From: Acidobacteriaceae bacterium
GTDB taxonomy: Bacteria > Acidobacteriota > Terriglobia > Terriglobales > Acidobacteriaceae
Direction: 5' to 3'
DNA: 64,000 nucleotides
NCBI GenBank assembly: GCA_003152695.1
Contig: PMAT01000080.1
Coordinates: forward strand, 1,473-65,472
Shown: positions 1 to 61,906 of the stretch, one piece after another
Layout of the letters: each line of letters begins with the position of its first letter
How positions within the stretch are numbered: the first letter of the stretch is position 1
Notes under the pieces: model-generated
What the model was told of the DNA's origin: nothing
The model's input: the letters and a program-made list of their open reading frames with translations, nothing else
Database searches by the model: none
Translations under genes and position numbers: made by a program

Positions 1-320
<320 letters not shown>

Positions 321-7635: not shown

Positions 7636-8747
7636 ATGCCAGACAAGAAATTCCGTATCTTTGCCACCGCCGACATCGGCGACGCTGCCTTCAAGCGCCT
7701 GCGCGAACGCGGCTACGAAGTGGATATCTACCCGTATCCCGAGCCGCCGCCCAAGCGCCTCATCATCGAAAAAGTTCGCGGCGGGATCGACGGACTCATC
7801 ACGACCTTACGTGACCCGATCGATGCCGAGATTTTCGAAGCAGGCAAGGGCACACTGAAGGTTGTTGCCCAGTACGCGGTGGGGTTTGACAACATCAACG
7901 GCGCCGATGCTAACCGCTACAGAATTCCTTTCACCAATACCGCTGACGTGCTGACCGAAGCGACGGCGGAGTTCGCTTTCTTCGCGCTGGCTGACTTGGC
8001 GCGCAAACTGTGGTCCGCGGAACATCTGGTGCGCGAGAACCGCTGGGGCTATTGGCATCCCTATCTGCCGTTTCTCGGCGATGAAGTGACCGGCAAAACC
8101 ATGGGCATCCTCGGCACCGGGCGCGTTGGGCAGGCCATGATCAAGAAGTGCATCGGCTTCGACATGAATATTTTGTGCTACGAAGCCATGGGTCCAAACG
8201 AGAAGCTGGTTGCTGGGTGCAGCAGCAGATGGACCTCCGCTTCAAAAACGGAATGCAGCGGGATCGCACGTCCATCCAATACGTCTCCATTGATGAAGCA
8301 CTGAGCCAGAGCGACTTCATCAGCATTCATGTGCCGCTGCTGCACGAGGGCGAGAGCGACACGCCCACGTATCACTTGATCAACGAGCGAACCTTGCGCA
8401 CCATGAAGCCCACGGCGTACCTCGTGAACACCTCGCGTGGACCAGTGGTGGATGAGAAGGCGCTGGCTAGGGCGCTAAGAGAGAAATGGATTGCCGGGGC
8501 CGCGCTCGATGTGTATGAAACCGAGCCGTTGCCGCCGGATTCACCGTTGCGCGATCCCGAGATTGAGGACCGCTGCCGGCTGTATCCGCACTTTGCCAGC
8601 GCCGCCAGGATCACGAGACTCTCTCTCGATCCCCAGCGCGGCATGGCCGGACGTTGTGTGCAGGCCCTGATCGACGTGTTAGAGCAAAACTACGGCGGCG
8701 ATGTGACCAAGATGCCGTATGTGGTGAATAAGGAGGCCTTCCGGTAG
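7636..8747 (+). pseudogene. D-2-hydroxyacid dehydrogenase (glyoxylate/hydroxypyruvate reductase-like) split by a -1 frameshift at about 8211-8214
   Basis: ORF 7636..8304 covers the substrate domain and GILGTGRVGQAMIKK Rossmann motif; ORF 8148..8747 continues ..WVQQQMDLRFKNG..VNTSRGPVVDEKALARALREKWIAGAALDVYETEPLP. Confidence 0.85.
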
Positions 8748-8749
8748 AG

Positions 8750-8845
8750 AGCACTCAGCACTCAGCATTCAGAACCTGATGACCCTTGCGGATGGGCGAG
8801 GATAACGCTTTAGGTTAAATGGCTGAATGCTGAATGCTGAGTGCT
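8750..8845. repeat. Inverted heptad arrays between convergent stop codons (23-nt arms 8750-8772 and 8823-8845, one mismatch)
   Basis: agcactcagcactcagcattcag .. ctgaatgctgaatgctgagtgct. Confidence 0.9.
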
Positions 8846-8850
8846 GACGG

Positions 8851-9546
8851 CTATCTTTCCGCCATCGCCGAGACCAGCGAGTGAAAGATTTTTACCCCGT
8901 CGGTCATGCCGAGCTCCGGTTCGCTGGCGCGCTCCGGATGGGGCATCATGCCCAGCACATTGCGTCCCTCATTGCAGATGCCGGCAATGTTCTCCAGCGA
9001 TCCATTTGGATTGGCTTCGGCAGTAACTTCGCCGCCGGGAGTCGTGTAGCGGAAGATAATGCGGTCCTGATCTTTCAATTCGGCCAGAGTGGGTCCGTCG
9101 CAGAAGTAGTTGCCTTCCATGTGGCCGATGGGAATCTCCAGCACGTCACCCTTGATCAACTGCTGCGTATAGGGCGTGTTGGTGCTCTCCACGCGAATGT
9201 GCACCGGCTTGCAGACGTACTTCAATCCGGCATTGCGCAGCAGGGCTCCGGGTAACAATCCAGCTTCACACAAAATCTGAAATCCGTTGCAGATGCCCAG
9301 CACCAGCCCGCCATCGGCGGCGAATTTGCGCACCGACTCCATGACCGGAGAAAACTTAGCGATAGCGCCGGTGCGGAGATAGTCCCCGTAGGCGAAGCCA
9401 CCGGGTACGATGATGGCGTCGCAACCTTGGAGGTCGGGCGAGTCATGCCAGAGGAAGGTCACGGGCTGGCGGGCCACTTCCGAAATGGCCCAATAAGCAT
9501 CGTGGTCGCAATTGGAACCGGGGAAGATGATGACGCCAAATTTCAT
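8851..9546 (-). CDS. purQ: Phosphoribosylformylglycinamidine synthase subunit PurQ
   Basis: [68 protein letters not shown]. Confidence 0.96.
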
Positions 9547-15132: not shown

Positions 15133-16971
15133 ATGGCCACAACTGAATTCGTAGTGCACGGCGCCGAGCATGGCGCCGTGCGTGAACCTGTCGTCAACGA
15201 CTTCAGCATCCAGGTTGCAACCGTAAACGGCTCGGGATCGCAGAGCGCCAACACCGTTCTGCTGCGCACCATTTTTCAGATGGGCGTCCCCGTGTCCGGC
15301 AAGAACATGTTCCCTTCGAACATCGCCGGCCTTCCCACCTGGTACACCATTCGCGCCAGCAAGAAGGGCTACATCGCGCGCAAGAAGGAAATCGATTTCC
15401 TCGTAGCGATGAATCCAGAGACCGCGCGCGAAGACACCATGTCGCTGGCATCGGGAGCAGCGGTGCTGTATGACGAGCCGCTGAAGCTGAATGAACTGCG
15501 CTCCGATGTCACGTTCTACGCCGTGCCCTACGACAAGATTTGCGCCGCGGTCTGCTCGGAGTCGAAGCTGCGCAAACTGGTCAAGAACATGATTTACGTC
15601 GGGGTGATGGCGCAGTTGCTCAGGCTCGACATGGCCGAAGTGGAAAAAGCGCTGCGCAAGCAGTTCGCCAAGAAGGTCAAGGCAGCCGACCTCAACTGGA
15701 ACGCCGCCAAGGCCGGTTACGATTACGCCGCGTCCTCGCTTACCAAGGCTGATCCGTTCACGGTTGAGCGCATGAACAAAACCGCGGGCATGATCATCAT
15801 CGACGGCAACGCCGCTGCGGCGCTGGGCTGCATGTTCGCAGGCGTTACCGTGGTCACGTGGTATCCGATCACACCTTCCTCGTCGCTCGTGGAAACCCTC
15901 ATTGATTACATGAAGGAATACCGAGTAGGAGACGATGGCAAGGCCACGTTTGCCATCGTCCAGGCAGAAGACGAACTTGCTGCCATCGGCATGGTCCTGG
16001 GCGCTGGATGGGCGGGAGCGCGATCCATGACCGCCACTGCCGGGCCGGGAATTTCGCTGATGGCGGAGTTCGCCGGCTTGGGCTACTACGTCGAGATTCC
16101 CGGCGTGATCTGGGACATCCAGCGCGTGGGTCCGTCCACTGGCCTGCCAACCCGCACCGCGCAGGGCGACATTGAGTTTGTGGCCAAGCTCTCGCACGGC
16201 GACACTTGTCATCCCATGTTGTTGCCATGCAGCGTGGCTGAGTGCTTCACCATGGCGAGTGACGCGTTCGATCTCACCGAGCAGTTGCAAACGCCGGTGT
16301 TCGTCATGTCCGATCTCGATCTCGGGATGAACAATTGGATGTCGGAGCCGTTTCAGTATCCCGACAAGCCGCAGAACCGCGGCAAGGTGCTGACCGCGGA
16401 AGAGCTGCAGCGTGTCGGTGGCTTCGCGCGATACAAGGACGTGGACGGCGACGGCATTGGCTACCGCACTCTGCCGGGAACCGATCATCCACAGGCGGCG
16501 TGGTTCGCGCGCGGCAGCGGACACAATGAGACCTCCGGCTACAGCGAACGGCCCGACGACTACGCCAACAACATGGACCGTCTGGCGCACAAGTTCGAGA
16601 CCGCGCGCACTCTGGTTCCCAAGCCGGAGATGGTGCGCAACGACGGCAACGAAGTCGGCATCATTGCGTATGGCACCTCGCATCACGCTGTCGTCGAGAC
16701 CCTCGATCAGTTGCAAAGCGAATACGGCGTGAAGGCCGATTATCTGCGCTTGCGCGCTTATCCCTTTACCAGCGAGACACACGACTTCGTGGCTGCGCAC
16801 AAGCGGATTTACATGATCGACCAGAACCGCGACGCGCAGATGTTGCAGTTGTTGAAGCTCGACATCGCGATCAAAGAGATCGGCAAGCTGCGCAGCGTTC
16901 GCCACTACAACGGATTGCCGATCGACGCGCGTTCCATCACCGACGACATCATTGTCCAGGAGGGCAAGTAA
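15133..16971 (+). CDS. 2-oxoacid:ferredoxin/acceptor oxidoreductase subunit alpha with fused N-terminal gamma domain
   Basis: N-terminal gamma-type domain (VNGSGSQSANTVLLRTIFQMGVPVSGKNMFPSNIAGLPTWY) followed by alpha domain (GVTVVTWYPITPSSSLVETL..ATAGPGISLMAEFAGLGYYVEIPGVI). Confidence 0.92.
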   Translation: MATTEFVVHGAEHGAVREPVVNDFSIQVATVNGSGSQSANTVLLRTIFQMGVPVSGKNMFPSNIAGLPTWYTIRASKKGYIARKKEIDFLVAMNPETAREDTMSLASGAAVLYDEPLKLNELRSDVTFYAVPYDKICAAVCSESKLRKLVKNMIYVGVMAQLLRLDMAEVEKALRKQFAKKVKAADLNWNAAKAGYDYAASSLTKADPFTVERMNKTAGMIIIDGNAAAALGCMFAGVTVVTWYPITPSSSLVETLIDYMKEYRVGDDGKATFAIVQAEDELAAIGMVLGAGWAGARSMTATAGPGISLMAEFAGLGYYVEIPGVIWDIQRVGPSTGLPTRTAQGDIEFVAKLSHGDTCHPMLLPCSVAECFTMASDAFDLTEQLQTPVFVMSDLDLGMNNWMSEPFQYPDKPQNRGKVLTAEELQRVGGFARYKDVDGDGIGYRTLPGTDHPQAAWFARGSGHNETSGYSERPDDYANNMDRLAHKFETARTLVPKPEMVRNDGNEVGIIAYGTSHHAVVETLDQLQSEYGVKADYLRLRAYPFTSETHDFVAAHKRIYMIDQNRDAQMLQLLKLDIAIKEIGKLRSVRHYNGLPIDARSITDDIIVQEGK

Positions 16972-21277: not shown

Positions 21278-21440
21278 TAGCATTTGGCATTTAGCACTTG
21301 GCACTTAGCCACTGCGAAGCCTCTTCCGCTAGGTGCTTGAATGCAGCTCGATCTCATCGACATCGAGAGGTCATTGCCGCGCCCCAAACGCTCCAGCCAA
21401 ATGTTAACTGCCAAATGCTAACTGCTAAATGCCAATTGCC
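21278..21440. repeat. Inverted heptad arrays between divergent tatB and the S41 protease gene (21278-21312 and 21395-21440)
   Basis: tagcatttggcatttagcacttggcacttagcc .. agccaaatgttaactgccaaatgctaactgctaaatgccaattgcc, period 7. Confidence 0.85.
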
Positions 21441-30206: not shown

Positions 30207-30323
30207 CTCGGGGCGACGTGCCCTAACCGCGTTGCAACAGCATAACTGTGTTACAACACATAGTATTGGATGTGGCCGGGGAGAAGAAGATTCAAGTCGC
30301 CTGGAATTGCCATTACGTTGGAA

Positions 30324-30360
30324 TTGTCATTACGAGCGAAGCGAGGAATCTGCTGTTGTT
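30324..30360 (+). repeat. Dispersed intergenic element, copy ttgtcattacgagcgaagcgaggaatctgctgttgtt
   Basis: Matches GTCATYNCGAGCGAAGCGAGGRATCTGCT. Confidence 0.7.
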
Positions 30361-30418
30361 TGCGCCGGCAAGCATCCCGGGAAAATAGCAGCTCCCGCAC
30401 GGCCTAAGGGCCGCTGAA

Positions 30419-32027: not shown

Positions 32028-32051
32028 GCTCGTCTAATTATAGGGGCGCGC

Positions 32052-32082
32052 CTGCTGAATACTGACTACTGATTGCTGAATT
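32052..32082. repeat. Heptad array abutting the stop codon of the downstream DUF507 gene
   Basis: ctgaata ctgacta ctgattg ctgaatt. Confidence 0.8.
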
Positions 32083-36698: not shown

Positions 36699-36700
36699 AG

Positions 36701-36727
36701 CAGTTGTCAGTAGTCAGTTGTCAGTTT
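36701..36727. repeat. Heptad array after the nuoI stop
   Basis: cagttgt cagtagt cagttgt cagttt. Confidence 0.85.
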
Positions 36728-36840
36728 GGTAGGCCGTATGGCTGCGATGGTTTCTTTGAGAATCGGCGTTGGTTTCGAGTTCAGTTGGCGCGACATGAAT
36801 GCCGAGGGTTGAAGCGGTCTTTAACACGAACAATGCTCCA

Positions 36841-36889
36841 GTCCCGCGAAGCGGGACGGCAGAGCTTAGCCCAGCGCTTCAGCGCTGGG
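36841..36889. repeat. REP-like palindromes in the nuoI-nuoJ gap
   Basis: GTCCCGCgaaGCGGGAC (36841-36857) and CCCAGCGCTtcAGCGCTGGG (36870-36889). Confidence 0.75.
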
Positions 36890-36927
36890 TGGGCGGGATA
36901 AAGAAACCAAGTCCCTCGGGGACGACA

Positions 36928-36978
36928 CAAAAGCAGGTCCCTCGACTCGGACTCAAGTCCTCGCTCGGGATGACAAAG
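36928..36978 (-). repeat. Dispersed intergenic element TTTGTCATCCCGAG..GAGGGACCTGCTTTT
   Basis: Reverse complement matches the element at 7451-7495 at both ends. Confidence 0.7.
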
Positions 36979-37004
36979 GTCAGGATGAAAGAGAAGCGCA
37001 CTAT

Positions 37005-37835: not shown

Positions 37836-37924
37836 AGCAACTAGCAACTAGTTGGCGATTCACACGTTGCTTCTGTGGCCATCTGGCGGTTTTTGGTCTT
37901 ACTAATTGCTAGTTGCTAGTTGCT
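37836..37924. repeat. Perfect 16-bp inverted heptad arrays between nuoK and nuoL (37836-37851 / 37909-37924)
   Basis: agcaactagcaactag .. ctagttgctagttgct. Confidence 0.92.
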
Positions 37925-40069: not shown

Positions 40070-40072
40070 AGA

Positions 40073-40210
40073 GCAGTTGCCAGTGGCCAGTTGTCAGTTT
40101 GGGTTTGGGCTGCTTGCCAACAGTGTGCACTCTGACACAACGATTATTGGGTTTGACTAATTGCTAATTGCTGACGTGCTGAAGGCTGATAGCTGAAGGC
40201 TGAGAGCTAA
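40073..40210. repeat. Two heptad arrays between nuoL and nuoM (40073-40110; 40156-40210)
   Basis: cagttgc cagtggc cagttgt cagtttg ; ctaattgctaattgctgacgtgctgaaggctgatagctgaaggctgagagct. Confidence 0.82.
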
Positions 40211-40214
40211 ATAA

Positions 40215-61824: not shown

Positions 61825-61906
61825 GGCTGAGTGGATGCTGAATGCTGAGTGCTGAGTGCTGACTGCAGAGTGCTGACTGCAGAGTGCTGACTGCAGAGTG
61901 CAGAAC
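61825..61906. repeat. Longest heptad array, with 14-nt higher-order unit, directly abutting the mqnD stop codon
   Basis: gctgaat gctgagt gctgagt (gctgact gcagagt)x3 gcagaac. Confidence 0.92.

Follow-up and report, generated by a model that had tools for sequence, protein, structure and literature searches.

Arrays of seven-nucleotide units have been described in several groups of bacteria. Cyanobacteria have the STRR heptads, heptads with small dispersed repeats within them, and the heptad stems of the Nostoc tRNA-Leu intron; these form arrays, some of them stem-forming, and foreign short repeats can be embedded between arrays. Cyanobacteria are a different phylum from the one considered here, and the likeness drawn is one of description.

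Better matched in layout are the heptameric repeats GGGAATC of Xanthomonas and GGGGA(C/T)T of Nostoc, whose arrays are mostly intergenic and lie near open reading frames (PMC4692102). Two arrays face each other, following an inward rule, in 70 cases in Xcc and 75 in Xac. The pairs stand between the same genes in the two species with variable sequence, and their function was left unexplained (PMC4692102). Polymerase slippage has been proposed as the cause of heptamers in general (cited in PMC4692102). In Beggiatoaceae a single unit, TAACTGA, forms intergenic direct repeats near gene edges, mostly just upstream of start codons: there are 169 direct sets against one indirect repeat (PMC4679880). 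REP sequences and REPINs are extragenic hairpins found near gene ends and between the genes of operons; they occur as inverted doublets, come in distinct 'flavours' in some genomes, and combine a conserved REP sequence with an associated RAYT transposase (PMC3116915). Our literature search found no paper on heptamer repeats in Acidobacteria.

Here we analyse a facing pair of heptad arrays between two convergent genes in the window, by which we mean the whole 64,000-nucleotide stretch under study, DNA of a soil acidobacterium (Acidobacteriaceae). The features are collected in Table 1. The original prediction, made from the letters of the window alone, was that the two arrays form a long hairpin that serves both genes as a bidirectional 3' element. 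Its geometry is exactly as described. Two inverted arms of 23 nt, complementary at 22 of 23 positions (96%, one mismatch), are separated by a 50-nt spacer; the left arm begins 3 nt past the dehydrogenase stop and the right arm stops 5 nt short of the end of the purQ reading frame. Both genes were also said to meet an identical 18-mer, and here a small correction is needed: the copy on the minus strand is exact, but the plus strand reads CAGCACTCAGCATTCAGA, which is off by one base, the last. When the RNA of 8740-8860 is folded, both strands give a stable structure (-57.4 kcal/mol, z -7.2 on the plus strand; -51.8 kcal/mol, z -6.5 on the minus strand), and none of 200 shuffles reaches this stability on either strand. 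The spacer occurs once in the sequence searched, which comprised 1.09 Mb of the same genome and the congener tiles. An Rfam search of 8300-9300 gave no match above the gathering score, only one at chance level (E 0.41). The upstream gene has a peculiarity of its own: relative to congeners, a 1-nt deletion near 8216 splits the dehydrogenase frame, which may be a real frameshift or a fault of the assembly.

Table 1. The dehydrogenase-purQ junction and the other array loci, numbered from the first nucleotide of the window.
Feature	Position	Strand	Remarks
D-isomer 2-hydroxyacid dehydrogenase	7636..8747	+	Split into ORFs 7636-8304 and 8148-8747
Left heptad array	8750..8772	+	AGCACTC, AGCACTC, AGCATTC, then AG; points inward from the dehydrogenase stop
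Spacer, 50 nt	8773..8822		Small inner stem AACCT...AGGTT
Right heptad array	8822..8847	-	Reads inward from the purQ stop on the minus strand; arm proper 8823-8845
purQ-like glutamine amidotransferase (GATase_5)	8851..9543	-	ORF start may be further upstream, 9588
Single array GTTGTCA	294..316	+	Related array at 232-257
Matched pair GCATTTG / GCCAAAT	21278..21440		Absent from congener G006
Single inward array CAGTTGT	36701..36726	+	Directly past a stop; gap empty in G003 and G005
Matched convergent pair AGCAACT / CTAGTTG	37836..37924		Between tandem genes (++)
Inward arrays CAGTTGC (left), CTAATTG / GCTGAAG (right)	40074..40208		Tandem genes
Long single inward array, CAGCACT / CTGCAGT flavour	61835..61904	-	Adjoins gene edge

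This hairpin belongs to a group of similar heptad-array pairs, at least several dozen strong, that face each other across intergenic gaps. The 18-mer from its arm occurs 66 times in the genome when one mismatch is allowed, and its backwards-read control not at all. In the window, the array pattern (at most one mismatch) has six matches against a shuffle mean of 0.00. A sequence-agnostic scan of 1.09 Mb of this genome (G000, 99.4% complete), 79% of it coding, found 80 period-7 arrays, and 76 of these lie between genes. For every other period from 4 to 13 the yield was 0-14 arrays; matches at period 14, a multiple of 7, are probably largely the same arrays. The units fall into several types, or flavours, among them YAGCnnT, YAGTnGH, VAGTTTC and YCGCnnT. 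Of the 65 typed arrays close to a gene edge, 58 point into the gap and seven away from it (p=4e-11); 35 of the 58 are at the 3' end of a gene and 23 at a 5' end. Because each type was assigned its strand label after inspection of the data, it is the consistency within a type that carries weight here; the tests of arm pairs are independent of the label. Gene calls came from our own script, without a standard annotator. The tiles are a non-random sample, many contigs of G000 and all contigs of the relatives G058 and G059 having been selected for carrying arrays, and most of the relatives compared seem to be drafts or metagenome assemblies that differ in completeness. The window also holds a dispersed repeat of another kind, about 95 nt long (30320-30414), with many copies in congeners at 80-87% identity.

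The two arms of a locus belong together. Loci with two arrays are type-matched, complementary and convergent in 15 of 21 cases in G000 and in 39 of 43 in G059, which belongs to the same class. Arms are more complementary to their own partners than to swapped ones (0.62 versus 0.39 in G000, 0.73 versus 0.29 in G059). At the dehydrogenase-purQ junction of seven genomes, only 6 of 5040 permutations of partners equal or beat the true pairs.

Similar arrays are patchily distributed in the class. The YAGCnnT pattern is present in 41 of 61 genomes, and the backward control is low in nearly all. In G039 the CAGCACT unit lies on the opposite strand, with GAGTGCT running inward (L284, L285 and L286). 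Arrays of many types occupy 63 of 133 gaps of 40-600 nt in the sampled G059 contigs (47%, a fraction biased upward because these contigs were chosen for their arrays; the bias weighs less on comparisons between kinds of gap inside one genome). Many of them take up the whole space from stop to start between tandem genes. Among 80 purQ loci of other taxa, arrays of several types were also seen in Pyrinomonadaceae and group 4 Acidobacteria, and several of these arrays form facing pairs.

How do orthologous sites compare? In relatives the orientation of the arms is not random, and the convergent arrangement at the dehydrogenase-purQ locus is found again in congeners. A flavour-matched hairpin sits in this gap in six of seven of them, our own genome included, while flavour and spacer differ. 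The unit is CAGCAYT in G000 and G003, TAGCAAY in G006, TTAGCAC-like in G002 and G008, and CAGCAAT in G005, so that the type switches on both arms between genomes. In G001 the spacer of this gap is long and the arms do not match, and in G007 another sequence follows purQ and lacks an array pair of this kind. Where orthologous gaps both carry arrays, the unit type differs in 38 of 67 comparisons, and at similar flank identity the median conservation of gaps is 0.21 with arrays versus 0.69 without. Two further observations concern what such intervals can hold. At 15173-15487 of locus L307, pairs of two heptad types are nested, CAGGTGT outside and GAGTGAC inside, as if one segment had entered another. 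Intervals bounded by arrays in the G001 orthologs of 40070-40214 and 32028-32081 include a gene for a Y1-type transposase and a toxin-antitoxin pair of the HigB/HTH kind.

One site, in another operon, is seen both filled and empty. The 306-nt gap at 36699-37004 of the window is filled in G000, G001, G002, G006 and G008. In G003 and G005 there is no gap at all, the stop codon of one gene sharing an ATGA or GTGA with the start codon of the next. In the filled genomes the overlap motif stands on both sides of the insert, the left copy in G001 being ATAA. This could be a target-site duplication, seen at this one site, where selection for intact genes at an overlapping stop and start would favour the same 4-nt duplication. 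As the only clean filled/empty site, it makes the duplication a single case. Even so, this site appears to offer the strongest individual support for insertion.

We see roughly an even chance that the hairpin is a copy of a genome-wide class of heptad-bounded insertions that turn over fast at gene junctions and are REP-like in their placement. On this account a small segment of DNA would be gained at a gene junction, with both of its ends made of arrays of a 7-nt unit pointing inward. One locus usually carries one unit type on both arms, and other loci, or the same locus in sister species, carry other types. The segments would arrive by insertion, perhaps more than once at a given junction, and would persist mainly at gene edges because insertion elsewhere would break genes. 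The effect on the cell would be incidental or REP-like, a hairpin that can slow RNA decay or read-through, rather than that of a dedicated bidirectional terminator. Against insertion count the single filled/empty site, the failure of any mobility gene to track the arrays, a unit sequence too variable for an ordinary transposon end, and the seven of the 65 edge arrays that face outward.

Several known agents were considered as the source of such segments. A MITE or a transposon with fixed terminal inverted repeats does not fit end arrays whose units differ between loci and between orthologous sites. The Y1 transposase (PF01797) has no match in the nearly complete G000, though it is present in most relatives. 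The reverse transcriptase domain RVT_1 (PF00078) was not found in many near-complete genomes rich in arrays (G016, G042, G047, G049, G058 and G059). Ku (PF02735) was not found in the array-rich G016, G058 and G059. None of the three follows the arrays across 61 genomes, and all three were rejected as makers.

Recurrence at the same junctions could reflect selection for the hairpin instead. The bidirectional 3' element of the original prediction is such a case: the hairpin would stop transcription or shield the mRNA 3' ends of both genes, and its sequence would drift because only pairing matters. Part of this proposal stands. The fold is stable on both strands, and at the same junction of congeners a hairpin with matched arms recurs despite replacement of its sequence. 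Convergent gaps are richer than tandem gaps in hairpins of any kind (15% versus 5% in G000, 29% versus 5% in congeners). Canonical U-tract terminators are scarce in this genome; a simple scan of its tiles found them in 22 of 394 3' flanks between tandem genes and 7 of 172 between convergent ones. What does not stand is any special bond between the arrays and 3' ends or convergent genes. Enrichment in convergent gaps was rejected, since arrays occupy 12 of 87 of these (13.8%), 48 of 385 tandem gaps (12.5%) and 7 of 100 divergent gaps (7%; p=0.47 for convergent versus the rest). Special retention was likewise rejected, orthologs keeping their arrays at 19 of 32 convergent sites and 49 of 85 tandem ones, and many arrays lie at gene 5' ends. 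The locus itself lacks the marks of an intrinsic (Rho-independent) terminator: between 8400 and 9300 no terminator-like stem with a T-run occurs on either strand, and the arms enclose a 50-nt gap instead of a short loop, with no U-run. In G059, arrays fill the stop-to-start gaps of tandem genes, where termination would silence the next gene unless a promoter lay within a few bases. Because the arrays are swapped so quickly for other sequences in relatives, a fast-changing inserted repeat is likelier than a purpose-built transcription stop, and we consider a selected 3' element unlikely as the explanation of these hairpins. At the dehydrogenase-purQ locus alone, a role at transcript ends may exist. 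For similar gene-end hairpins in Acidobacteriota, shape alone is an insufficient basis for annotating a terminator.

Other explanations concern the making of the arrays. They might grow in place, by replication slippage from sequence at gene edges, with the arms kept alike by hairpin-templated correction (quasi-palindrome repair) and with no insertion. The slippage origin proposed earlier for bacterial heptamers (cited in PMC4692102) speaks for this, as does the point at which the arrays begin, at or within the last bases of the gene (median +2 nt from gene 3' ends, IQR -1 to 4, in G059). Own arms are, moreover, slightly closer to each other than to same-type arms of other loci (0.753 versus 0.662, in 9 of 12 cases, in G000; 0.785 versus 0.729, in 22 of 36, in G059). 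Growth alone, however, leaves unexplained the inward rule, the nested pairs, the replacement of whole spacers and unit types between sister species, and a 306-nt gap standing opposite an empty, overlapping stop and start; we doubt that it is the answer. A more elaborate scheme is templated end addition, in which a telomerase-like or other polymerase extends the two 3' ends of a break, or of an insert, with 7-nt repeats before they are joined. Both arrays do run 5' to 3' toward the junction with one type per event, as this scheme expects, and a preprint reports a bacterial reverse transcriptase, DRT10, that makes tandem-repeat DNA (PMC12632851). Against it stand the array-rich genomes in which RVT_1 or Ku is missing, and the lack of a candidate enzyme; we hold it to be very improbable. 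Heptad-bounded insertion, our preferred reading, could also have an agent of its own. It is conceivable, if rather improbable, that Acidobacteriota have a new process in which a dedicated polymerase or recombinase, with a product sequence that differs each time it acts, equips the two ends of DNA joined into gene junctions with heptad arrays of a chosen type. If so, a single architecture would be spreading through genomes without a conserved sequence.

The closest described kind remains the convergent heptamer pairs of Xanthomonas, which share with ours the intergenic 7-nt arrays and their arrangement in facing pairs (PMC4692102). That study treated one G-rich, quadruplex-forming unit type in each genome, in Xanthomonas and in Nostoc, and left it unexplained, whereas here many types coexist and most are not G-rich (CAGCACT, TAGCAAT and TCGCTTT, for example). 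G-tracts of the quadruplex kind do not occur in units like CAGCAYT and TAGCAAT, and the inward strand of the two-array loci of G000 contains 261 G and 272 C. The Beggiatoaceae repeat has a similar unit here in the CAGTTGT type, but here there are several units, and they form facing pairs. REP sequences and REPINs are alike in placement and inverted form; ours comprise several unrelated heptad types without a common palindromic unit, and G000 has no RAYT-type Y1_Tnp (PF01797) match. What goes beyond the Xanthomonas and Nostoc description is the presence of many unit types in one genome, arms matched in type locus by locus, and the exchange of one type for another between sister species at the same junction. 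Because types coexist, match and are swapped, the architecture is separable from any particular sequence, and its origin becomes testable.
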